From the NCBI GenBank assembly GCA_004299085.1, contig SCQV01000062.1:1-39913 (forward strand): 39,913 nucleotides of DNA. The letters run 5' to 3'. Of the stretch, positions 21,173-39,913 are shown piece by piece. A program made the translations under genes and the position numbers. The notes under the pieces are model-generated. The model saw only the letters and a program-made list of their open reading frames with translations, was not told the DNA's origin and searched no databases. The stretch's first letter is position 1, and the number at the start of each line of letters is the position of its first letter. Source of the DNA: Chitinophagaceae bacterium (GTDB lineage Bacteria; Bacteroidota; Bacteroidia; Chitinophagales; Chitinophagaceae).

Positions 21173-22951
21173 TTACTTAAGTTTGAAGGTTACAACGTGA
21201 GCCAACGAAACAACCATATGCTGGTCATTGTCCTCATCATTTTGGCCTAAAGGTATTCGAAGATCACGAATCCAGGCAACGATACGAGTTTGAATACGAG
21301 CATCCACCACCATGCCTGTACTTTGATCAACCCACTGTTCTCGCTCGAACAAAAGCTTGCCTCCATGCTTAGAAAAGAATTCGTAATTGGAGCCATTAAC
21401 GAGACGAGTTTCTTCTTCGGGTAATAAATCTTTAATTGTGACACCCAGCTTATCAAGCCAAAAATCGCCTGAAGCTCGTAATAGCCTACAATGGTGTCCT
21501 CTAAATACCGTATCACCTACATAAGTTTTTTCCATTGGCACCTTTCTTATTGGAGCCAGGTCAGAACCCCGAAGAATAGGAATGCGTAATGTTTCAATTG
21601 TTTTCCAATGATCACCTGGACGGATGCCATCCACAGGTAACAAGGCTGCAATTACTGGCACATCCGGTGCTAGCCATTTAGCCCTTTCGCCTGTAGCATA
21701 AAGATGACTAACTTTTCCTTGACGACTTACCACGAACTTTATGTTTTGTGAGGTATCATTGTGGTGTGTTGAGCCAAACTGCCACTTAAAGTCTTGAATC
21801 TTTGCTTCCACCTTATGAGCATCTTCCTCATTTTTCCCTTTTACGGCTAAGTTCAAATTTGCCGTTGCTTTATAATAGGGCAGGGTATTATATTTTGATG
21901 GATAAAAGGGTTTATAATGTGGTTTCGAAATTTTAGATAATGAATTCTCTATTGGTATATCCTGTACTCCAACCTCAGTTATCTCATAATTCCAAGATTT
22001 GCCAACAGACAACTGAGGTGGCTTCACCCCTCTGTCTGGTTTAAGATATTGAAACAATTGAACAAGAACTCGCTGGTTGTTATCCCACGGCCGGGATATA
22101 TTTCCTGTCCAAGTACCCGTATCTCCACATAAGATAACCTTTCCTTTTCCATATCGAACCATCACTATGCCAGGTCCTTTCACATGGGCATCGGAGTAAC
22201 CTGGATCAGAATATACATTCATAAGTACTTCAGGGTGTATTGCAGCCGGTAAAATCTTTAAAGTACACCCGCCCCCATAGTGAAAAACAGGTACATCATA
22301 AAAATACGGCGCCTCATCGCCGACTTGAATGTCGGAAGCATGAGTATTGTCGTTATTCCAATCAAGCCCAAACCCCCTCATCAGCTTACGTATTTGGATT
22401 TCTTCAAAACTTTCAGACAAATTATCACCTCCATTGATAGTTACCATCAGACTACCTCCATCTTTGACGAAACGACGAAGGACATCAATTTCGTTATCAC
22501 TAATAATTTTCGCCGATGGAATAATTTTCGGGTTATCCGGATTTATCATTATCACAGCATCCGTATGAGAAAGCGATGACTCAGAAAATGGAACTTCAGT
22601 CATTGAAATGGCAAACTCTTTGGATAATGCTATAAAGACCGGATCGAAAGAATTAGTATGGACAAAATCATTCCACGCATAGCGACCAGAATTATTTTTC
22701 CATCCTCCTGTAACCATATCAAGGTCGCCTATTTTGAGAGTAGGTTTATGATGGTGATAATAATCAAAAAGCAAGCGGATAGCTGGAGCGCATCCAGGGC
22801 TATATAGATTTGGCGCTAATAAAGTAGTATCCTGGTTTTGTGAGCTAATTTCAGAGCTTTTCAGTATATTCTGGCTTTCCACCTGGCTTACACAAAAAAG
22901 ACATACCAAAAAGATAAAACATCCGGATTTAATTCTTGTGTTGATATTCAT
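21173..22951 (-). CDS. Secreted two-part protein: DUF4350/GATase-like N-terminal half, unknown C-terminal half
   Basis: A 592-aa protein with a signal peptide (about 1-26). The start is taken at ATG 22951, as the 11 extra codons upstream to 22984 would bury the signal. Residues about 45-310 resemble the DUF4350/class I glutamine-amidotransferase-like fold: FVKDGGSLMVTINGGDN is the typical loop after a strand, and VMVRYGKGKVILCGDTGTWTG closes the domain. No amidotransferase Cys-His-Glu triad is evident, so it is more likely a binding domain. The C-terminal half (about 330-592) is beta-rich and I do not recognise it. The gene lies between two sialidase-fold genes in the SusCD operon, so it probably acts on, or holds, the same extracellular glycan. 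Confidence 0.75.
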   Translation of the reverse strand: MNINTRIKSGCFIFLVCLFCVSQVESQNILKSSEISSQNQDTTLLAPNLYSPGCAPAIRLLFDYYHHHKPTLKIGDLDMVTGGWKNNSGRYAWNDFVHTNSFDPVFIALSKEFAISMTEVPFSESSLSHTDAVIMINPDNPKIIPSAKIISDNEIDVLRRFVKDGGSLMVTINGGDNLSESFEEIQIRKLMRGFGLDWNNDNTHASDIQVGDEAPYFYDVPVFHYGGGCTLKILPAAIHPEVLMNVYSDPGYSDAHVKGPGIVMVRYGKGKVILCGDTGTWTGNISRPWDNNQRVLVQLFQYLKPDRGVKPPQLSVGKSWNYEITEVGVQDIPIENSLSKISKPHYKPFYPSKYNTLPYYKATANLNLAVKGKNEEDAHKVEAKIQDFKWQFGSTHHNDTSQNIKFVVSRQGKVSHLYATGERAKWLAPDVPVIAALLPVDGIRPGDHWKTIETLRIPILRGSDLAPIRKVPMEKTYVGDTVFRGHHCRLLRASGDFWLDKLGVTIKDLLPEEETRLVNGSNYEFFSKHGGKLLFEREQWVDQSTGMVVDARIQTRIVAWIRDLRIPLGQNDEDNDQHMVVSLAHVVTFKLK

Positions 22952-23038
22952 AATTAAAGGATCAGAAATTATCAATAGAAACAATTACACTAGCTTTCGT
23001 TATACGTGTCTAATCATGAGGGTGTTTTGGTCAACCGT

Positions 23039-29305: not shown

Positions 29306-30070
29306 CTATTTGACTATATCTATCAACAGAGATTGTTGATATGCTTTTTTCCTTTCAGCATCTTCCTTTGCCGATTCTCCGAAATAAATAAAGCCTAACG
29401 CCTTGCGTGTTCTATTTTTGCTCGTATTACCATCGGCTCTGTGGATAGTCATAGAATGGTGGATCAGAAGATCTCCTGGTCCGGTGTGAAATAAAATCTC
29501 ATTTTCTTTACTTTCTTTTTCTCCGTAATCCGCAATGGCCTGGGAGAAACCAGAAGTTTGGGTTTTGCCGTGTGCCCTTATGCCAAGTAAATGCGAGCCC
29601 CTTATATAACGGACACACCCGTTTTCTTCATCTACGTCCTCCAGCCCCAGCCACATCGTGAGCGCCTGAGGTGGATTGAGCATGAAATAAAAATTATCCT
29701 GGTGTGGAGGAGTCGGCCTGCCAATTTTCGATGGCTTATTAAAATACTCGATTGTTTTTCCTATGGCTTTTTCTCCAAGCAGGGTTTCTGCCATATTTTC
29801 AAACTTGCTATTGGTAAGCATTGCGGCAAAGAAGGGGTCATAATCCTGTAAATCTTGTAATTGTTTAAGCGTGTTAGGATCGTTTTTATCTTCATAAAAG
29901 ATATGATGAGGAGCTATCTTTGACAAACCATTGTAAATTAAATCATCTAGTTTTGCTTTTACTGCCTTTATTTCTTCGTGGTTCAGAAAGCCGGGAATAA
30001 AGATGAAACCATCCAGATCAAAAGACTTCTTCAAAGATGTATTCGTATTTACAGGCATAATCTTATACAT
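29306..30070 (-). CDS. Phytanoyl-CoA dioxygenase (PhyH)-family Fe(II)/2-oxoglutarate oxygenase
   Basis: A 254-aa non-haem iron oxygenase. The iron-binding facial triad is visible as His123-x-Asp125 (PPHQDN) and distal His210 (SMTIHRADGNTS), with Arg220/222 for 2-oxoglutarate. The family hydroxylates small molecules, from fatty acyl-CoA to amino acids and antibiotics. No signal peptide, so cytoplasmic. A TAnnTTTG motif lies only 12 nt before the first ATG, so translation may begin at Met5 (30058; MPVNTNTS). It lies between the SusC operon and a ceramidase-fold gene. The substrate is unknown; removal of a hydrocarbon, N-methyl or acyl decoration from the imported compound is possible. Confidence 0.9.
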   Translation of the reverse strand: MYKIMPVNTNTSLKKSFDLDGFIFIPGFLNHEEIKAVKAKLDDLIYNGLSKIAPHHIFYEDKNDPNTLKQLQDLQDYDPFFAAMLTNSKFENMAETLLGEKAIGKTIEYFNKPSKIGRPTPPHQDNFYFMLNPPQALTMWLGLEDVDEENGCVRYIRGSHLLGIRAHGKTQTSGFSQAIADYGEKESKENEILFHTGPGDLLIHHSMTIHRADGNTSKNRTRKALGFIYFGESAKEDAERKKAYQQSLLIDIVK

Positions 30071-30136: not shown

Positions 30137-31519
30137 TTATTTTTTAACCAGATTGATCAATTGATGCAGCTTATCCCGGATAATCTTTTCCGCATTTATC
30201 TCAAGAAAGCTACTCCTGCATCGCCAGGTTTCATAACCTCCTAAATCAAATTCATGGGCAGGCGGCACATAACCTGTATAACCATTGGCCAGGCAAACGG
30301 TAAAATAATTTTTTGTCTTACCGTTTTCTTTTAACCACAAGCCGGTTTTAGCAAAGAACTCTCCGCCTAATCCGCCAATCATTCCTATACCGACCTTAAT
30401 CACCTGTAAGGGGAATAAAACTGCATCCGGATATTCACTTAGCAAAACCTGCTCTCTGGCATAAATCCTTTTTAAGTTATCATCATTCCCGGTATGTGAA
30501 ACTTCTTTCATGGAAAGATGGTCATAACGTGTTTCCATCACAACTCTCTCCGCCGCTTTTAATTCAATAGATGAAGGCTTTCTAACTTTAACAGGAATTT
30601 CTTCATATAAAGAAGATAATGTAGGGTTGTCGTCCCAGGTGAGCCCACGTAGAGAATTAAAAGTTCTTTCAGCGATATCCTTGCCAATGAAAGCACTTTT
30701 TGTAAAATATCCTTTTGGATAACGATCCGGTTGGAGAAGATCAACAATATTAGCATCCCCGCTGGTTCCATTGCTCATGATAGCTACAAAATTATCCGAG
30801 ACCCGAAGCAGGGATTTTAGTTGTTTTGCAAATACGCCAAAGTAATCAGAGGTTATGGTACCGTTTTCCCAATCGCCCACATAATGCATGGAATAATTCG
30901 CCAATAGTCCAATCCACTGATTATCCTGTCCCTGCAAGGCAAGATAGCTCACTTCAGGATCTGTTACGTTCTCCCTTTTCACAATCCTATCCTCACCCCC
31001 AAAAGGATTAGTTTTTATTTTATCCAATTTGCCTGTAACCGGGTTATAAGCCTCATACCCTTCTTGCATAAAATAGCGGCGACAAACCACATGTTCAGGA
31101 ACCTCTACAGATCCAAAAGCTATTTTTGCCGGGCGTAATCTTTCTTTAGCTTGCATTACAACTGAAACTATCCGTTGTTTTAGCTTTTGCCGATAGGGAA
31201 GATCTGCAGCGGCCAAAAGGAGGCCTTCAACAGAGCCCCCCCCATGCGTGTGAGTGGCTGAAATAAGAATTTGACCAGGGTTAATATTTGTTTGTTTATT
31301 TATCTGATTTTTAACCTCCTCTATAAAATCTTTTTGCATCAAACAAATATCCACTACCACAAAAGCGATGCTTACCTGGTCATTCCGCAACACAATGGCT
31401 TTAGCATACAGTGGATCATGTATCAAATGTGCATAGTGTGAAACAAAGTCGCCGTTAATCAGAGTGCCTAAAGGAGGAGTTATGTCAATTTGTGCGGCTC
31501 CGGCATGAAAGTTATTCAT
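30137..31519 (-). CDS. Neutral/alkaline ceramidase-fold hydrolase, cytoplasmic
   Basis: A 460-aa protein matching the N-terminal catalytic domain of neutral/alkaline non-lysosomal ceramidases (zinc amidases). It starts directly with the family opening AGAAQIDITPPLGTLINGDF. It carries the zinc-site motif SATHTHGGG (His90, His92) and the NYSMHY (His212) followed by TSDYFG (Asp225) pattern. There is no signal peptide and no C-terminal beta-sandwich, unlike true secreted ceramidases, so it probably cleaves an amide of a small imported molecule in the cytoplasm. Eight consecutive G on the coding strand (31236-31243) encode the Gly-Gly-Gly next to the zinc ligand. The promoter motif sits inside a palindromic repeat just upstream. 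Confidence 0.85.
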   Translation of the reverse strand: MNNFHAGAAQIDITPPLGTLINGDFVSHYAHLIHDPLYAKAIVLRNDQVSIAFVVVDICLMQKDFIEEVKNQINKQTNINPGQILISATHTHGGGSVEGLLLAAADLPYRQKLKQRIVSVVMQAKERLRPAKIAFGSVEVPEHVVCRRYFMQEGYEAYNPVTGKLDKIKTNPFGGEDRIVKRENVTDPEVSYLALQGQDNQWIGLLANYSMHYVGDWENGTITSDYFGVFAKQLKSLLRVSDNFVAIMSNGTSGDANIVDLLQPDRYPKGYFTKSAFIGKDIAERTFNSLRGLTWDDNPTLSSLYEEIPVKVRKPSSIELKAAERVVMETRYDHLSMKEVSHTGNDDNLKRIYAREQVLLSEYPDAVLFPLQVIKVGIGMIGGLGGEFFAKTGLWLKENGKTKNYFTVCLANGYTGYVPPAHEFDLGGYETWRCRSSFLEINAEKIIRDKLHQLINLVKK

Positions 31520-31760: not shown

Positions 31761-32882
31761 TCACATACCAATTTTCCTTCGTCTTGCTTCTACTTGCCAT
31801 TGACCAATAATGTCTCCATTTTTCACTACCTGTACTTCATCATATAAAGCGACTGTTGGGCAAACATGATAAGGAATCCCATAAAGGACGTCTCCTATTT
31901 CTAAATGATGCCAATTTTTTTCATTAACTTGTAGAGAAAGGTGTTCTTCACTCTGTGAGGTCAATGTATAATCACTCAGATTTAAAAAGGAAATTCGTTT
32001 ATTAATAGCATTTTCGGCTGCAACAGATTTGTATCCCAAATCAGCAGTGATGATGTAGGGAGTTGGCTTTGAGATAATTCGCGTCATTAAAATAGCTGCT
32101 GGCAAAAAAGATTGTTCCTGTAACAGATTTCCATACCCATAGTCCCATAACAAGACTGTTCCAGGACTACATAATACATGAGGGGTTAAGGCGTGAATGG
32201 GAAAAGTTGGGCTTCCTCCGGCAATAACTTCCGGCATAGGAAATCCGGAGGCTACAATCTGTTTTATTACTTTCTCTATAGGTTTAAAATCAGTCTCACA
32301 TTTTATTTTTCTTTTCTCAAAATCTTTTTCATTTATATGTCCATCATAAACATGTAATCCCTTACAGGAAATATTAGATAGGGACATGATTGCTTTATAA
32401 AAAGAGAGCACATCTCCATGAGAGGGGAATCCGGTCCTATGCATGCCGTTGTCAATGTCTATATAAACTGTTCCCTGAATCCCTGCTAATAGAAAGAGAT
32501 CATTTAAGTCATTAGCGCTCTTCCTATTATCGACAAGAGAAGAAAAATGTACTGTAGAATACTTTTTTATTAATTGTACATATCTAAGAATCTTGGGTCC
32601 CGTAAGTTGATACGCTAACAACACCTCATGAGCGCCCGTTTGGGCGAGCACTTCTGCTTCAGCGATAGTAGCACATTTAAAACGTCGAATCCCTGCAGCC
32701 ATTTGCAGTTTTACCACTTCGGACATTTTATGTGTTTTTATATGTGGAACCAAGCGGTCTGCATGCCCAACGACCGATATCATCTCCTTTATATTATAAC
32801 GAATTCGATCCGGATAGACCAGCAAAGCAGGAGAATCCGTATATTCAGGTTGGCTTAATGGGTACCAGGGACTATTAGCCAT
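31761..32882 (-). CDS. D-threonine aldolase-like (D-TA family) PLP enzyme
   Basis: A 373-aa fold-type III (alanine-racemase-like) PLP enzyme. The Schiff-base lysine is Lys49 in PHIKTHK, the hallmark of D-threonine aldolase/D-serine dehydratase relatives. The C-terminal part carries the metal-site stretch IPYHVCPTVALYDEV. The start is placed at ATG 32882 (MANSPWYPL); the frame runs 22 codons further up to 32948, but through repeat DNA with Cys-rich non-family sequence. Members cleave D-3-hydroxy-amino acids to glycine and an aldehyde, or dehydrate them. Here it may split a 3-hydroxy-2-amino acid produced with the help of the aminotransferases. The gene is isolated between two repeat-bearing spaces. 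Confidence 0.88.
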   Translation of the reverse strand: MANSPWYPLSQPEYTDSPALLVYPDRIRYNIKEMISVVGHADRLVPHIKTHKMSEVVKLQMAAGIRRFKCATIAEAEVLAQTGAHEVLLAYQLTGPKILRYVQLIKKYSTVHFSSLVDNRKSANDLNDLFLLAGIQGTVYIDIDNGMHRTGFPSHGDVLSFYKAIMSLSNISCKGLHVYDGHINEKDFEKRKIKCETDFKPIEKVIKQIVASGFPMPEVIAGGSPTFPIHALTPHVLCSPGTVLLWDYGYGNLLQEQSFLPAAILMTRIISKPTPYIITADLGYKSVAAENAINKRISFLNLSDYTLTSQSEEHLSLQVNEKNWHHLEIGDVLYGIPYHVCPTVALYDEVQVVKNGDIIGQWQVEARRRKIGM

Positions 32883-32910
32883 ATTACATAAATTGAAGGA
32901 TGAGTCCACG

Positions 32911-33021
32911 CCGAAAAGTTTAAACTCGGCACAAAGACACGAGGACACAAAGAAATAACCAAACGTAACTAATTGTTTTACAAGTCTTTGTAAAACTTAG
33001 TAACTTTGTGCCTTAGTGGCA
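32911..33021. repeat. Hairpin-rich intergenic repeat (CACAAAG type)
   Basis: The space upstream of the D-TA-like gene holds several inverted repeats: a short palindrome around GTTTAAAC (32918-32925); GGCACAAAG (32928-32936) with CTTTGTGCC (33004-33012); and a perfect 9-bp hairpin GTTTTACAA (32975-32983)/TTGTAAAAC (32988-32996) with a 4-nt loop. Units CACAAAGACACGAGGACACAAAG and ACTTTGTGCCTTAGTGGC are the same family as at 31597-31657. The hairpin may also end the dipeptidase transcript. The remainder, 33022-33125, shows nothing. Confidence 0.65.
32960..32967 (-). promoter_or_regulatory. Bacteroidetes-type -7 motif upstream of D-TA-like gene (TACGTTTG)
   Basis: Minus strand TACGTTTG matches TAnnTTTG, 78 nt before the chosen start at 32882 and within the repeat region. 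If used, it places the transcription start upstream of both possible start codons. Confidence 0.4.
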
Positions 33022-33125: not shown

Positions 33126-34220
33126 CTATTTCCAAGCCGCTTTCAAAAACCGTATCCAGTTTTTATAAAAAATATTCTCAATATCTTCCTGCTTATATCC
33201 TCTACTTAAAAGAATACTTTGATACTTTTGAAGATCGGCAATTGAATTCATATCATAGGGAGTTTGTTCTGTACCGAAATTACCATCCAAATCACTTCCG
33301 ATTGCCACATGAAGGCTATCCCCTGCTATTTGACATATATGATCCCAATGATCTACCAAATGTTCCAACTTAATATTTAACTGCCAAGGATCAGATACTG
33401 CATCAATAAAACGAATATCCAAAGCCCAGCAATCTAACATCCCTCCTATAACAGCATCTCTGTCAATTAATATTTTGATTTGCTCATCAGTAAGCTGCCG
33501 TTGAGTGGGAACTATTTTTCTTACGTTACAATGGCTAGCCCATACAGGCCCCATGTATTTTTCCACTACTTGCTTAAAACCTTTGTCTGTGAGATGAGTG
33601 ACATCTAAGATCATGTTAAGCCTATCCATTTCTTTTAGTAATTCAAAACCTTCCTGCGTTAATCCACCTTCTGTTTTGGTCCCTGATGCATATCTTCCTT
33701 TACTAAAATGTGCTAAACCGACCGCCCTCAATCCATAATTATATGCTTTATCCAAATAAGAAATATCTACCAAAGAATCAGCGCCTTCTAAGCTTAAAAT
33801 ATATCCAATGGGTTTTGTTTCATCCGGAATATTGCTGTCATTCCATAAAGCCAAATGATGATCAATCTCCTGATTATTAGTGATCTGTACCATCTCACCC
33901 ATTACCTCCATTTCTCTGTACCAGGCAAGTTGCGCCTGTGTCATTGCCCATGCTTGTTGTGGCGAGTTCCAGCTTGAACCGGGTAGAGAGCCTCCTGATG
34001 TAGCCACCCTTGAGAGTTGCGTGGCAACCACCAATCCAATTTTTCCTTTCCTTAATTCCGGGAGGCAAACAGTGCCACGCCCTCTGTCGTTTTTATCTTT
34101 GAGATGTATTTCTCTTTGTCTTATTTCATTCAATGGGCGCGTAAGGTCTCTGTTCCATTCTATGGCATTCATGGCCAGATCAAGGTGCGCATCGAATATA
34201 AATATTTTATTCTTGTCCAT
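33126..34220 (-). CDS. M19 family (renal-type) dipeptidase
   Basis: A 364-aa zinc dipeptidase of the amidohydrolase superfamily. Metal ligands are visible as His12-x-Asp14 (FDAHLDL), a mid-protein Glu (SLEGADS), and His in LDVTHLT and WASHCN. AIGSDLDGNFG near the C-terminus is also characteristic. Members hydrolyse dipeptides, often with a D- or dehydro-amino acid at the C-terminal position. No signal peptide is seen, so it is cytoplasmic. Its start overlaps the end of the dehydrogenase-fold gene by 14 bp (34207-34220), which indicates translational coupling. It is the last gene of the ridA-headed operon. An amino-acyl derivative is therefore a likely part of the substrate. Confidence 0.9.
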   Translation of the reverse strand: MDKNKIFIFDAHLDLAMNAIEWNRDLTRPLNEIRQREIHLKDKNDRGRGTVCLPELRKGKIGLVVATQLSRVATSGGSLPGSSWNSPQQAWAMTQAQLAWYREMEVMGEMVQITNNQEIDHHLALWNDSNIPDETKPIGYILSLEGADSLVDISYLDKAYNYGLRAVGLAHFSKGRYASGTKTEGGLTQEGFELLKEMDRLNMILDVTHLTDKGFKQVVEKYMGPVWASHCNVRKIVPTQRQLTDEQIKILIDRDAVIGGMLDCWALDIRFIDAVSDPWQLNIKLEHLVDHWDHICQIAGDSLHVAIGSDLDGNFGTEQTPYDMNSIADLQKYQSILLSRGYKQEDIENIFYKNWIRFLKAAWK

Positions 34221-35184
34221 TTGTTCTTGTTATACCTTCTGACGGAATACTATTTTTTAAATCATTAAAAGGATATTTATCCATAATCCTTTTTATTTGA
34301 TAACTAAAGCCCCTAAAGGTAGAAATCCATTTACGGACACTTTTTACCGAATACTGATAAAATCCCCTCCCATTTTCTATTCCATTTCCTCCCTCTTCAA
34401 TAATTTTATTAAAAAACGGCGGCGTACCTGTTGCTTTAGACAGCGTTGGATTGAGGCCTTTCATGACTTTCCCGTAAGCATAGGTTCCCATTAAATCCAT
34501 ATAACGACAGTTCCCGGCAAAAGGAGCATAGTAGCCGGCATCATTCCTGCATGCACGATCTATATCCTCAATGGTGGCAAATCCATTCTGCACCAGATAA
34601 AAAGCTTCCCGGGCCATAGAAGCAAATAGCTTAGCATATACACTACAGTCTCCAGAGACCATATAAGGATCTTTTTGCCAAGATGTTTTGGCAAAATAAA
34701 GAAGCGATTGAATGTATTTCGGATCAACGTTTCCATTGGCAATAATTTCGAGAAAAAGGGTTGTGTGAGCCGGCTCCATCCAATTGGCGCCAATGACTCT
34801 ATTGGGGTAGTGGCTTTTTCTCTGCAAGCTATTTAATGAAATACTTTCTGTATTCACAGCGATAATGGAATCGGGAGAAATATACCTTTCTACCAGTTGT
34901 ATATATTTGACTTTAGCTCGTATTTCTTCCTCTGTAATTAATATGACCAATGGGTCATTGACAGGATTATTTATTTCTTTCGTAATTTGTAAAGTATAAC
35001 CCTGGGGAGCTTTGTATCCAGAAACTTCCATCTCATGAAGATGAGTATTGATACCTCTTTTTGCCTCTTCTTCACTACCGGTAAGTAAAGTAACAGGATG
35101 GCCTCCAGCCAATAAGCATACTGCAATACTATAAGCGAGCCTGTTATTTCCTATAAGTAGTATGGGTATTAAATCATTATGCAT
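34207..35184 (-). CDS. Degenerate 3-hydroxyacyl-CoA dehydrogenase-fold protein (probable pseudoenzyme)
   Basis: A 325-aa protein with the two-domain layout of 3-hydroxyacyl-CoA dehydrogenases and clear relatedness to the 337-aa protein two genes upstream. The catalytic positions are lost. The Rossmann G-x-G-x-x-G is reduced to IGNNRLAYS (11-19). Ser of TNTS becomes Glu113 (VNTES). The catalytic His of GIHWSEPA becomes Asn134 (GANWMEPA). The Asn of GFITNRL is replaced (SVYAKLF). Only Glu146 (FLEI) remains. The reading frame is intact and translationally coupled to neighbours, so it is maintained and not decaying. It may bind a ligand, act as a non-catalytic subunit of the intact paralogue, or have a new reaction. 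Confidence 0.83.
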   Translation of the reverse strand: MHNDLIPILLIGNNRLAYSIAVCLLAGGHPVTLLTGSEEEAKRGINTHLHEMEVSGYKAPQGYTLQITKEINNPVNDPLVILITEEEIRAKVKYIQLVERYISPDSIIAVNTESISLNSLQRKSHYPNRVIGANWMEPAHTTLFLEIIANGNVDPKYIQSLLYFAKTSWQKDPYMVSGDCSVYAKLFASMAREAFYLVQNGFATIEDIDRACRNDAGYYAPFAGNCRYMDLMGTYAYGKVMKGLNPTLSKATGTPPFFNKIIEEGGNGIENGRGFYQYSVKSVRKWISTFRGFSYQIKRIMDKYPFNDLKNSIPSEGITRTNGQE

Positions 35185-35197
35185 TATTATTTGACTA

Positions 35198-36502
35198 TTA
35201 AAGGTTTTTTAGCACTTCTCCGGCAATTACAATGGCTTTATCTATATCTTCCTCCGTATGCGCTGCACTTATATACCACAAGCCTCTCCCAATAATACGT
35301 ATTCCCCTGTCATGCATGCCCCCAACGAATTTCCTCATTTTCTTTTTATTAAATGTTAACGTATCTCTGTAATCTTTTACTTTTGTAAGATCAGTAAAAG
35401 CAATGTTAAACATGGGTCCCGACCCCTGGATCAGCAGGTTTTGTTTCGTATCATCTGCAGCCCCTTTCAGTCCCTCCATCAGCTTTTTGCCATAGGCAAA
35501 TAAGCGATCATACGGATTCTCTTTGTCTAATATTTCCAGGGTAGCAAGTGCGGCCGCTACTGTCGGATTGTTAGAATTCATGGTGCCGGCATGAATGACT
35601 TTCGATTGTTCAATGACCTGCATCCACTTCCTTTTCCCAACAATAGCGCTTATTGGGTAACCGCTTGCTAAAGCTTTTGCAAAAACCGCCATATCGGGTA
35701 GGATATTAAAATATTGCTGTGCCCCACCTAAACCCAACCTAAAGCCGGTGATCACTTCGTCGAAGATCAGCGCTATACCATACTCGTCACATACCTGCCT
35801 CAACCCATCTAAAAAACCGTCCTCTGGAAGGATGCAACCATTATTACACATTACGGGCTCCGTAATAATAGCCGCAATATCCTTATAATGCCTGGTAACT
35901 GTTTCTCTCAGTAGATCTATATCATTCCATGGAATGATGATAAACTCCTCGCGGCTGTGAGCGGGCAATCCCTCTGTCCAGGGGTAAACCTCCGGTGCTG
36001 ATCTGTCTCCTAATGCTTCAATGGATGGAGTAGAAAGCCCCCAGCACATATTATCCAACCATCCATGATAATGGCCTTCAAAACGCAGAAATTTTTTTCT
36101 TCCGGTTACAGCTCTGGCCACACGAAGTGCGGCTTGAACAGCTTCGGAACCATCCAGGCAAAAACGCATTAATTCCGCGGAAGGGATCAGTTGGTGTAGT
36201 TTCTCAGCCAGTAGTATTTCTTTAATATGTTGACCTGCATATAGTTGTCCGGCAGAAGAATATTCGGCAACTGCTTCCAGCACTTTTGGATTCGAGTGTC
36301 CCAAGATCAAAGGGCCCTGCCCCAACGCAAAATCAAGATACTCATTTCCGTCCACATCAAAGATGCGACTCCCTTTTCCATGGGTGTAAAATAAAGCGTG
36401 TGGGTAGCTATATCTCCTGAATTCTGACGATACCCCCCCTGCGAGCACCTTCTCAGCGCGTTTAAGCAATGCTGCAGATTTTTTATATTGTATTGATGAC
36501 AT
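35198..36502 (-). CDS. Class III PLP aminotransferase, glutamate-1-semialdehyde aminomutase-like (copy 2)
   Basis: A 434-aa paralogue of the enzyme at 1256-2569; long stretches such as MRFCLDGSEA, RVARAVTGRKKFLRFEGHYH and AAIITEPVMCNNGCIL are identical or nearly so. The PLP lysine is Lys276 (FAKALASGYP), and the DEV motif is at 248-250. It lies between the intact dehydrogenase gene (11 bp upstream) and the degenerate one (13 bp downstream). In an operon with RidA, it may make an amino-aldehyde or ketone that is reduced or oxidised next, with RidA hydrolysing a reactive enamine or imine side product. The substrate is unknown. A run of seven G (36433-36439) encodes Gly-Gly near the N-terminus. 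Confidence 0.9.
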   Translation of the reverse strand: MSSIQYKKSAALLKRAEKVLAGGVSSEFRRYSYPHALFYTHGKGSRIFDVDGNEYLDFALGQGPLILGHSNPKVLEAVAEYSSAGQLYAGQHIKEILLAEKLHQLIPSAELMRFCLDGSEAVQAALRVARAVTGRKKFLRFEGHYHGWLDNMCWGLSTPSIEALGDRSAPEVYPWTEGLPAHSREEFIIIPWNDIDLLRETVTRHYKDIAAIITEPVMCNNGCILPEDGFLDGLRQVCDEYGIALIFDEVITGFRLGLGGAQQYFNILPDMAVFAKALASGYPISAIVGKRKWMQVIEQSKVIHAGTMNSNNPTVAAALATLEILDKENPYDRLFAYGKKLMEGLKGAADDTKQNLLIQGSGPMFNIAFTDLTKVKDYRDTLTFNKKKMRKFVGGMHDRGIRIIGRGLWYISAAHTEEDIDKAIVIAGEVLKNL

Positions 36503-36513
36503 GATAAAACTAT

Positions 36514-37527
36514 TTATTCCTTTGTTAGCTCCCGCGATTTCTTGGTTAATTCAATGGGTGTTTTCCCTGAAGGATACAATAAGGATAAATGATAAATTTC
36601 CTTGTTAAAGGAGGCGAAAGCCTTATCCCACTGCTCCGCTTCTGCCTGGGTGTAATCATACAATCCATGGCAATTATGTATTCCCTTAGCCTGTATATCC
36701 ACCATACGTTGCATGATGTCAGGAACGCTGTCACTATTGGTTAACTCAGGAAAGATATTATTAAAGACGGTCTCATACTTTTTTAACCCCTCAAAATCCA
36801 TTCTTCCAAAAATCCCCATGAGGGTTATCCATGATCCGACTCCGTACCGAAAAGCCTTATCTATATCTTCTATAGATACCTGCCTCTTTTCCACCAGGGA
36901 AAAAGTTTCTCTATAAGCGCTATACATCAGACGATTGGTAATAAACCCTCTGATATCTTTTTTCAATAAAGTAGGTTCTTTCCCCCAGCAATGAGCCAGG
37001 TCAAATATCCAAGTAGCTACATTTTCAGAAGTTTCATTTCCTTTTGTGATTTCCATAAAACGGGTAACGAAAGCCGGTTCTGACCAATGAATGCCAATAA
37101 AATTTTCCGGATGAGCCACATATTGTTGTAAAACGCTGATAGGAATTGCCGAGGTGTTAGTTGCGATAATAGTTTTTCTTTCAACAATTCTTGTAATCTT
37201 TCTGTAGATTTCCTTTTTTACTTCAATATCTTCCAAAACACACTCCAGTACAAGCTGACAATCGTCCAGTTCATGGTAATCATCCGAGATAGTAAGAGAT
37301 GCTAAATAATCTCTTAACGGCCTTTTTAGCAACCCTGTTTTGGCGGCATTTAATAATAGTTCTTTGATATGCAAAGAAGCCCTTTCCTTTTCATCGTCTA
37401 TCGGCGCAATACCGACTACTGGATGCCCAGCTATTAAAAGTGCAACGGCAATACTACTCCCCATAAGCCCCAAACCTACAATACCGACTATAATATCCTT
37501 GGTATTAATTTGATTTCTCGTCACCAT
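36514..37527 (-). CDS. 3-hydroxyacyl-CoA dehydrogenase family protein (catalytic residues intact)
   Basis: A 337-aa NAD-dependent dehydrogenase. The Rossmann motif GLGLMG follows VGIV near residues 18-23. Catalytic positions by comparison with the family are Ser126 (TNTS), His147 (GIHWSEPA), Glu159 (FMEI) and Asn198 (GFITNRL). The stretch HWSEPA in place of the usual HFFNP indicates a substrate other than ordinary fatty acyl-CoA, as in the L-gulonate/carnitine dehydrogenase side of this family. It starts 3 bp after RidA and precedes the aminotransferase gene. A beta-hydroxy acid oxidation step is likely. Confidence 0.88.
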   Translation of the reverse strand: MVTRNQINTKDIIVGIVGLGLMGSSIAVALLIAGHPVVGIAPIDDEKERASLHIKELLLNAAKTGLLKRPLRDYLASLTISDDYHELDDCQLVLECVLEDIEVKKEIYRKITRIVERKTIIATNTSAIPISVLQQYVAHPENFIGIHWSEPAFVTRFMEITKGNETSENVATWIFDLAHCWGKEPTLLKKDIRGFITNRLMYSAYRETFSLVEKRQVSIEDIDKAFRYGVGSWITLMGIFGRMDFEGLKKYETVFNNIFPELTNSDSVPDIMQRMVDIQAKGIHNCHGLYDYTQAEAEQWDKAFASFNKEIYHLSLLYPSGKTPIELTKKSRELTKE

Positions 37528-37530
37528 AAA

Positions 37531-37920
37531 TTAACCGGGTAATTTTGCGATACAGTCAATTTCTACTTTGACCCCTTCTGCCAGGATGGATTGTACAGTA
37601 GTCCTTGCAGGGCGTATATCCTTAAAGTATTTAGAATACGCTGTATTATAGCGGTCAAAATCATTAATATCTGCTAAATAAGCGGTTACCTTAATCACGT
37701 CCCCCATAGAACCGCCGGCAGCCTCCACGATGGCTTTGATATTATCAAGAGCTCGTTTCGTTTCTTCTTCAATAGAACCTAAAATAAATTGGGAAGAAGC
37801 GAAATCAACCGAAGCTTGCCCGCTTACAAACAGAAATCTGTCAAGTAATACTCCATCGGAGTATGCACCCGTGACAAAGGTTGATTTCCTTTTTGGATGA
37901 TCAATTCTAACTTTATTCAT
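37531..37920 (-). CDS. RidA family enamine/imine deaminase
   Basis: A 129-aa protein of the RidA/YjgF/UK114 family, the usual length. The substrate-binding Arg106 in RPARTTVQ and the ending VEIDCIAKLPG are characteristic, as is FVSGQASVD near the N-terminus. Members hydrolyse reactive 2-aminoacrylate-type enamines formed by PLP enzymes, or act in specific catabolic pathways. It is the first gene of a five-gene operon containing a PLP aminotransferase, which fits this role. A TAnnTTTG motif lies 38 nt upstream. Confidence 0.93.
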   Translation of the reverse strand: MNKVRIDHPKRKSTFVTGAYSDGVLLDRFLFVSGQASVDFASSQFILGSIEEETKRALDNIKAIVEAAGGSMGDVIKVTAYLADINDFDRYNTAYSKYFKDIRPARTTVQSILAEGVKVEIDCIAKLPG

Positions 37921-38531: not shown

Positions 38532-39434
38532 GTGAGAAGCAAAAGGGATAAATTTGTAGGTGTGAATTCAATCAAGTTCAATCGCCGATTCAAAGATGAG
38601 GCTTCCTGCTATGAGTATTTGACTTCTGTAAAATGGGAACTGGGGTATAAATGTAAAAGGTGTGGCTGTGAAAAATATTGTAAGGGTAAAAAGCCTTTTT
38701 CAAGAAGATGTATAAGATACAGTTATGATGAAAGTCGTACGGCCGGAACAATGTTTGATAAGTATAAATTTTCATTATTAATTGCACTTCATATTGCATT
38801 TAAAATAAGCACGAAAAAGAAGGGGATGTCATCTTTAGAATTATCGAAAGAGTTTGAATTGAAGCAAATGACATGTTGGGGGTTTAAATGGAAAATTCAG
38901 CAGGCCATGCGGAGTAGCAAACACTATAAATTGACTGGGGAGGTTCATGTGGATGAATTCTTTATTGGCGGTCCAGAAGATCAAAAAAGAGAACGTAGTA
39001 AAGGGGAAAAGAAGTTAGTTATACTTGCCTTAGAAAAAGTGAAGGACGGTGTGGGAAGAGCCTATGCTCAAATTATAGCAGATGCCTCAGCAGATTCATT
39101 TAAACCGTTCTTTAATAATTACATTGATAAGTCAGCTTATGTAATAACAGATGAATGGACTGGATATCTACCATTAAAAAGAGAATATCCCAACCTGAAA
39201 CAAATCCCTTCTATAGAAGGTAAAAATTTCCCTGATTTACATATTCATATAATGAACCTAAAAGGATGGTTGAGGGGAATACATCACCATTGTAGTGAAG
39301 AAAGATTGCAGGGGTATCTTGATGAATACCATTTTAGATTTAATCGAAGAAACGCAATGGATTCAATCTTGGATACATTAATAAAAAGAATGGTAGCCTA
39401 TGAACCTATTCGTTTAGATAATTATGCGACCTAA
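38532..39434 (+). CDS. IS1595-family transposase, zinc ribbon damaged
   Basis: A 300-aa transposase starting with GTG. The N-terminal zinc-ribbon domain has Cys41 and Cys44 (CKRC) and Cys60, but the fourth ligand is Tyr63 (RRCIRYSY; codon TAC at 38718-38720, one base from TGC). The catalytic domain of the DDE/DDN type (the ISXO2-like superfamily domain) begins with VHVDEFFIGG (Asp141), continues with VITDEWTGY (Asp207) and ends with YLDEYHFRFNRR (Glu265). The protein is otherwise full length. Loss of the zinc ligand may reduce DNA binding, so the element could be inactive. Confidence 0.92.
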   Translation: MRSKRDKFVGVNSIKFNRRFKDEASCYEYLTSVKWELGYKCKRCGCEKYCKGKKPFSRRCIRYSYDESRTAGTMFDKYKFSLLIALHIAFKISTKKKGMSSLELSKEFELKQMTCWGFKWKIQQAMRSSKHYKLTGEVHVDEFFIGGPEDQKRERSKGEKKLVILALEKVKDGVGRAYAQIIADASADSFKPFFNNYIDKSAYVITDEWTGYLPLKREYPNLKQIPSIEGKNFPDLHIHIMNLKGWLRGIHHHCSEERLQGYLDEYHFRFNRRNAMDSILDTLIKRMVAYEPIRLDNYAT

Positions 39435-39447: not shown

Positions 39448-39577
39448 AAAAGCTAAAAAGGTTAGAAGGTCTAAATCATTCTTATCTACTAAAGTTATAA
39501 TGCGAAATTGATTTAATGAAGTATTGCCATAAAAAAACCTGATTTGCATTAATAGCTATCATCTTATTCTGCCAGGC

Positions 39578-39913
39578 ACGAATGCAGGATGAAAACAACC
39601 AGGAATACATGAATAAGGCCACACACGAATACACGAATGAAACCCACACACACGAACGCGCGAATAGTTTTGACAAAAAAAGTTTTATTTGTGCATTTCT
39701 GCCTTCCAATTCGTGCATGAGTGTTAAACGCCTGCACACGAATACACGAATAATTGCTATATACGAATGCACGAATGAAACCCACACACACGAACGAGCG
39801 AATAGCTTTGACAAAAAAAGTTTTATTTGTGCATTCGGGCCTTCCAATTCGTGCATGAGTGTTAAAGGGCCACACACGAATGCACGAATAGCGATGGCAA
39901 TAAAAATCTTTAT
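39578..39913. repeat. Two-copy 138-bp tandem repeat rich in CACGAAT units
   Basis: Unit A (39621-39758) and unit B (39759-39896) are aligned with a 138-bp period and differ at few positions; a third copy begins at 39897 and is cut by the window end. Each unit starts with two or three CACGAAT-type units, continues with GAAACCCACACACACGAACG and GACAAAAAAAGTTTTATTTG, and ends with ATTCGTGCATGAGTG, the inverse of the CACGAAT units, so a hairpin can form. A looser CACGAATGC copy lies near 39578. It is not likely to be coding. The space 39448-39577 shows nothing else. Confidence 0.85.

Follow-up and report, generated by a model that had tools for sequence, protein, structure and literature searches.

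A conserved 3-hydroxyacyl-CoA dehydrogenase paralogue without the family's catalytic Ser, His and Asn in a Chitinophagaceae gene cluster

The stretch of DNA considered here (the window; 39,913 nucleotides) is positions 1 to 39,913 of contig SCQV01000062.1 of a Chitinophagaceae bacterium (assembly GCA_004299085.1). Its minus strand carries two genes for proteins of the 3-hydroxyacyl-CoA dehydrogenase (3HCDH) family, here termed A (337 amino acid residues; 36514–37527) and B (325 residues; 34207–35184), with a class-III aminotransferase gene between them (35198–36502). A possesses the catalytic residues Ser126, His147, Glu159 and Asn198, whereas the matching positions of B hold Glu113, Asn134, Glu146 and Ala184, and none of 28 B orthologues has the Ser, His or Asn back. 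We tentatively favour the view that B is a pseudo-dehydrogenase whose former active-site cleft serves to bind a ligand, and that it most likely does so as a partner of A.

Catalytic residues and the NAD loop

Both proteins are matched by PF02737 (N-domain) and PF00725 (C-domain). The scores for B, 57.7 bits (cut-off 22) and 46.7 bits (cut-off 22.1), respectively, place it in the 3HCDH fold and sequence family, and Pfam gave no domain in B beyond these two. The paralogues are 29% identical over B residues 8–307, and the nearest solved relative by sequence is, for both, FHMPC 5-dehydrogenase (4om8; E 3.5e-46 with A, its best PDB match). In human HAD, as described in a passage of PMC10988713, the proton is accepted by His158, which Glu170 holds in place, and Asn208 packs against the reacting groups; a passage of PMC6333283 describes the FadB2 counterpart of human Ser137 as a serine essential for catalysis.

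An earlier sequence-only reading of this DNA had assigned Ser126, His147, Glu159 and Asn198 to the 337-residue protein and Glu, Asn, Glu and a non-Asn residue to its paralogue, and had proposed alignment with family structures as a check. The MAFFT columns return the same four residues in A, opposite B E113, N134, E146 and A184, and when B is aligned by HMMER to enzyme chains from mammals, the pairing, read by eye, again sets these B residues against Ser, His, Glu and Asn. B therefore presents Glu/Asn/Glu/Ala in place of the 3HCDH catalytic set Ser/His/Glu/Asn; Glu146 is the family's own Glu, hence retained and not substituted. No other Ser, His or Asn fits the active site. An alternative alignment was rejected, the region from N111 to Q121 being free of gaps with S114, present in 28/28 B proteins, shifted by one position. 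A substitute catalytic His was likewise rejected: the best-kept candidate, H140, is His in 21 of the 28, and no column exceeds that number.

The NAD loop of the window's B reads GNNRLA, with one of the three NAD glycines and hence no GxGxxG, against GLGLMG in A. The third loop glycine is absent from all 28 B proteins, of which 23 retain both G12 and G14; Glu86 and Lys91 are invariant. The statement that B lacks the glycine-rich NAD motif thus holds for the window's protein and for the third glycine, but not for the first two; since 23 of the 28 keep two of the three glycines, the loss of nucleotide binding is not established, and we regard it as plausible. After strand 2, neither B nor A nor group C (intact, single-copy relatives) has a conserved acidic residue. 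At the end of this strand an Ala-Pro pair stands instead of an acidic residue in 17/17 A proteins and in nearly all of group C (Ala 16/17, Pro 14/17), from which it appears that the cofactor of A may itself be unusual.

Orthologues of B

The orthologues were drawn from 294 genomes belonging to the family of the window (completeness is 90% or more and contamination 5% or less in 249), of which 13 contain B, the window's included, and from named genomes (15 loci). This yielded 28 proteins, 26 of them distinct; the two sources share at least two organisms, with identical B proteins in L015/L040 and L016/L042. The His position is occupied by Asn (N134) and the Glu position by Glu (E146) in all 28. 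The Ser position holds Glu (E113) in 27 and Gly in the remaining one (L036), and the Asn position is Ala in 15, Ser in 12 and Tyr in one. A deletion of two residues, opposite G194-F195 of A in the loop leading toward the Asn position, is common to all, and the cleft residues E113, S114, N134, E146, K171, D172 and P173 are fixed in 27–28 of the 28. Because it is common to 28 orthologues, this pattern goes beyond chance; orthologous operons, as the sequence-only reading had asked, do keep the same substitutions. The B protein of a further genome (G448) is more divergent, with Asp, Asn, Glu and Ser at the four catalytic positions and the same two-residue deletion; at S114 it carries Tyr, and E86 and K91 are both missing. 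The intact set Ser/His/Glu/Asn is kept in 17/17 A and 17/17 group-C proteins, a distant protein (L004) having been set aside, and in 12/12 additional A partners, a set that shares some organisms with the 17.

The B proteins form a monophyletic clade (support 100/100), as do the A proteins (100/100). An origin of B by recent duplication of A is not supported, all B proteins lying in one clade on a long branch. Topology tests gave approximately unbiased p values (p-AU) of 0.073 for A and B together and 0.283 for B with C; B is an old branch, and the tree and the tests are compatible with more than one order of A, B and C. Two fragments from the family survey (G043 and G141) were checked as candidate B proteins and belong to the intact-type group C. 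Among 72,556 plasmid records there was no match to B at E 1e-20.

Two loci (L101 and L110, at approximately 7.5–10.6 kb) carry a single-copy intact C dehydrogenase between the RidA and M19 genes, with no aminotransferase match within the 19 kb fetched, and represent a one-enzyme counterpart of the A/B cluster. The cluster of another genome (G081; L082, 9696) holds three 3HCDH genes, the third being more distant.

Selection and domain-wise constraint

The B open reading frames encode 306–329 residues without an internal stop in 28/28; one match (G009) ran through a TGA, at which a 312-residue frame naturally ends. The ratio of nonsynonymous to synonymous substitution (dN/dS) for six related operon pairs was 0.10–0.21 for B and 0.05–0.19 for A, with B higher in five pairs and A higher in L044/L046; these values are rough, as pairs share members and two have dS >1.6 for both genes. 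In a seventh pair (L077/L090) the synonymous sites of B were saturated and there was no value for A. The frame in the window is intact (34207–35184) and overlaps its neighbour by 14 bp (34207–34220), as had been stated, and the claim that B is being kept is borne out by the open frames, the fixed substitutions and the low dN/dS.

The constraint is unevenly distributed along the protein. Over the same 15 loci B and A have mean identities of 28.9% and 51.6%, respectively, in the first Rossmann half, of 44.8% and 64.7% in the second, and of 62.2% and 62.3% in the C-domain, which is responsible for dimerisation. Near-invariant sites (at least 26/28 in B, at least 16/17 in A) number 2/60 in B and 15/60 in A for the first beta-alpha-beta stretch (residues 1–60), and 45/125 and 48/127, respectively, for the C-domain. 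From the identities and the near-invariant counts, it follows that in B constraint has loosened over the cofactor half and is undiminished over the C-domain, while some of the cleft sites are still fixed, several of them for a different residue. Among C-domain columns conserved within the A, B and C groups, 15 are identical in all three, group C alone differs at one and all differ at two; B matches C, with A different, at five (A K224, F226, Y228, S232 and N308), and B alone differs at four, two being the deletion. A would thus seem to have altered part of its C-domain, while B kept C-like residues there and changed its redox side, which would fit a division of labour.

Co-occurrence, gene order and co-evolution

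Within the family, A was called at 490 bits or more with the A profile, plus one protein cut by a contig end (G030, 64% identical to that of the window), and B from matches of 46–56%, plus the window itself. The two occur in the same 13 of 294 genomes and never one alone. In a phylum sample of 395 genomes, the two again coincided, in three genomes (B scoring at least 354.9 bits and A at least 469.5, the next match to A being 424.8), and in a class-level draw of 395 genomes B was found in those same three. All 15 named loci have both. As would be looked for in a heteromer, one paralogue consistently lacks catalytic residues and both are found together in genomes. The cluster is kept in Chitinophagaceae, Rhabdobacter and Cyclobacterium.

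Neighbouring genes were surveyed at 28 loci outside the window (15 named, 12 from the family and that of G448; 29 rows, one a shorter duplicate). The nearest upstream match of B was the aminotransferase in 22 and A in two, with neither adjoining B in four. In two loci (L042, 6907–8927, and L100) A adjoins B with no aminotransferase between them. Directly downstream of B lies the M19 gene in 22 of the 28; the 6/6 Cyclobacterium loci have a PhyH gene there and no M19 gene. The ATG of the M19 gene overlaps the end of B by 4 or 8 bases in 14 loci.

Protein distances were correlated over 15 hand-picked operons, near-copies and operons without all four genes being left out. The partial correlation between A and B was 0.31 (permutation p 0.006) and ranged from 0.16 to 0.40 when one operon was left out; B with the aminotransferase (0.12, p 0.23) and B with the M19 protein (0.11, p 0.28) were not significant.

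Structural models and known systems

The first fold match of the B model was 4om8, with a template modelling (TM) score of 0.64 by query length and a root-mean-square deviation of 6.2. The mean predicted local distance difference test (pLDDT) score was 73.6 for the B model and 66.3 for that of A. The C-domains of both models are of low confidence. A passage of PMC6333283 describes the dimer interface of FadB2 as made solely by the C-domain.

FHMPC 5-dehydrogenase (4om8, NF042925) and human HAD (1f0y) belong, like A and B, to the same two-domain family; both keep Ser/His/Glu/Asn and GxGxxG, whereas B is without the Ser, His, Asn and third glycine. Inactive subunits beside live enzymes are already known, and dead paralogues partnering live enzymes are best known in eukaryotes. 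In BbsCD the paralogous inactive subunit is BbsC. To judge by a title cited in PMC10818641, BbsCD, a (hydroxybenzyl)succinyl-CoA dehydrogenase, is like A/B a bacterial dehydrogenase with inactive pseudoenzyme subunits; it is, however, a short-chain alcohol dehydrogenase and not a 3HCDH protein, and its heterotetramer is experimental, whereas the A–B pairing is proposed here. The trypanosomatid deoxyhypusine synthase and the S-adenosylmethionine decarboxylase (AdoMetDC) with its prozyme, as treated in parts of PMC3663545, PMC6221367 and PMC5201418, have a dead paralogue which activates the live enzyme via a heteromer, although these are unrelated eukaryotic enzyme families in which activation was measured. 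Within the same superfamily, HAD-C2 of FadB is, according to a passage of PMC6333283, a stretch without its own active site that replaces the C-domain of a second subunit; it is a fused C-domain only, whereas B is a separate full-length protein.

In the open-licence literature, no paper was found to join "3-hydroxyacyl-CoA dehydrogenase" and "pseudoenzyme." A wider search on related terms named 3-hydroxyacyl-CoA dehydrogenase in none of the matches listed, absence from print not being shown beyond that, and among the matches found on this gene set none was, by title, on such a cluster.

Proposed role of B and alternatives

With three catalytic residues (His, Ser and Asn) lost and the cofactor half largely released from constraint, B should be without the NAD-linked hydroxyl oxidation of its family. 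In the role that we tentatively favour, B would keep the 3HCDH fold and the domain for dimerisation, together with a ligand cleft that has been reshaped (Glu113, Ser114, Asn134 and Glu146), and would most likely pair with A via the C-terminal domain, the family's dimer interface. It would bind a ligand from the pathway and thereby activate, stabilise or gate A; that this ligand might be an amine or imine with a positive charge is a guess prompted by the acidity of the cleft and by the neighbouring aminotransferase and RidA genes. The data show directly the substitutions and their conservation, purifying selection on B, its co-occurrence with A and the uneven constraint on its domains; from these we infer the loss of activity, the heterodimer, the type of ligand and the regulation. 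The sequence-only reading had offered a pseudoenzyme subunit or a neofunctionalised binding protein; conservation speaks for a kept, pseudoenzyme-like protein, while its standing as a subunit is something we infer. A more specific scheme, unlikely in its entirety, has an ancestral homodimeric 3HCDH-type enzyme split into an obligate A–B heterodimer in a Bacteroidota catabolic cluster, A keeping the redox function and B supplying an acidic, nucleotide-free, allosteric amine or imine pocket which gates A. If this is true, the 3HCDH family would include an enzyme regulated by a pseudoenzyme.

Several observations weigh against a non-redox partner of A. The C-domains are of low confidence in both models, and a nucleotide may still bind, given G12/G14 in 23/28 and E86/K91 in 28/28 (the protein of G448 aside). 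A (51.6% over all A, vs 61.6% for the C-domain) and C (60.1% vs 81.2%) are likewise least conserved in the first Rossmann half; the drop is larger in B than in either, and only its size is special. The cleft strands (residues 101–150) have 14/50 near-invariant sites in B vs 27/50 in A, and those residues which are fixed could equally serve a new enzymatic activity. The A–B distance signal is weak, and A correlates more closely with the aminotransferase (0.53) and the M19 protein (0.38; aminotransferase with M19, 0.18), so that co-evolution was rejected as proof of a complex. Furthermore, in 5/13 family genomes (G236, G009, G109, G179 and G081) A lies on the same contig but 14–22 kb from B, and B directly precedes the M19 gene in 13/13; being nearer to the M19 gene than to A, other than in Cyclobacterium, loosens the argument for a subunit and is odd for obligate ones.

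This arrangement is what would be expected if B were a free-standing, neofunctionalised non-redox enzyme (e.g., a hydrolase, decarboxylase or isomerase) using the old cleft in the same pathway, perhaps next to the M19 step, with no partnership with A. The M19 gene directly after B in 22 of the 28 loci and in the window, the distance to A and the seven cleft residues fixed in 27–28 proteins all speak for this explanation, which we nevertheless consider somewhat unlikely: B accompanies A in all 13 family genomes, there is no obvious new base (no B column is His in more than 21 of the 28), the six Cyclobacterium loci have no M19 gene after B, and S114 is replaced by Tyr in G448. It is improbable that B is an oxidoreductase with altered chemistry, such as a reductase of imines or amines that relies on acidic residues in place of the His base and on a weakly conserved nucleotide site. 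The retained glycines and E86/K91, the two acidic residues that the Ser-to-Glu change leaves in the cleft, and neighbours suggestive of imine or amine intermediates are consistent with such an enzyme; the third glycine is, however, lost throughout, the window's B has one of three, no acidic residue is conserved after strand 2 (nor is one in A or C), and the cofactor half is the least conserved (28.9%).

A role in sensing a ligand or in scaffolding other proteins of the cluster, with A not an obligate partner, would account for cleft residues fixed without the redox set, yet the C-domain of B is as constrained as that of A and there is no further Pfam domain; we think this quite improbable. A decaying, functionless copy is scarcely credible: only the faster evolution of B than A in most comparisons points that way, and decay or frameshift is rejected by the frames without internal stops in 28/28 (the TGA in G009 being a natural end), the fixed substitutions, dN/dS well below 1 and the retention of the cluster in three groups of bacteria. 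Homology alone would name B a dehydrogenase, and the pathway could thus be misread. The A/B pair, the intact C-type relatives and the many orthologues make the role of a dead dehydrogenase testable, with proteins of environmental-type bacteria.

The gene cluster in the window

The minus-strand run is headed by a gene for a RidA-family enamine/imine deaminase (37531–37920, 129 residues; PF01042, E 7.5e-30; TIGR00004, 109.6 bits against a cut-off of 106.25), followed by A, the aminotransferase (AT434, HemL/GntE-like; PF00202) and B. Beyond B lie the gene of the M19 (membrane-dipeptidase) family (DIP364, 33126–34220; PF01244, E 2.2e-51), an alanine-racemase-N/D-serine-dehydratase-domain gene (DSD395, 31761–32948; PF01168 and PF14031), a neutral-ceramidase-family gene (CER460, 30137–31519; PF04734), a PhyH-family dioxygenase gene (29306–30070; PF05721) and a SusC/SusD pair, all on the same strand. 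The aminotransferase and RidA genes may point to amine or imine intermediates. The NCBIfam pathway names FHMPC degradation, HemL and guanitoxin GntE were not adopted, their scores falling below the cut-offs (NF042925, cut-off 500: A 192.8 bits, B 91.4 bits; GntE, cut-off 525: 422.1 bits for the aminotransferase).

Positions 32–29153 constitute a large catabolic cluster with BNR (sialidase-like) genes, a NanU-like SusD with SusC, and genes of the DHDPS family, GH20, MFS, three short-chain dehydrogenases/reductases (SDRs), AKR, GFO, HpcH aldolase, GDSL and PPDK; several of these recur beside A/B in other genomes. A 603-residue open reading frame (21173–22984) has a weak Pfam match, below cut-off. 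Two class-III aminotransferases (1256–2569 and 35198–36502), 76% identical, stand at opposite ends of the cluster; of the two copies, the former gives the higher score with the aminotransferase that accompanies A/B in other genomes. Upstream of the RidA gene, and on the opposite strand to it, is an IS1595-type transposase gene (38532–39434), and a 24-base tandem repeat (39577–39651) is located near the end of the window.

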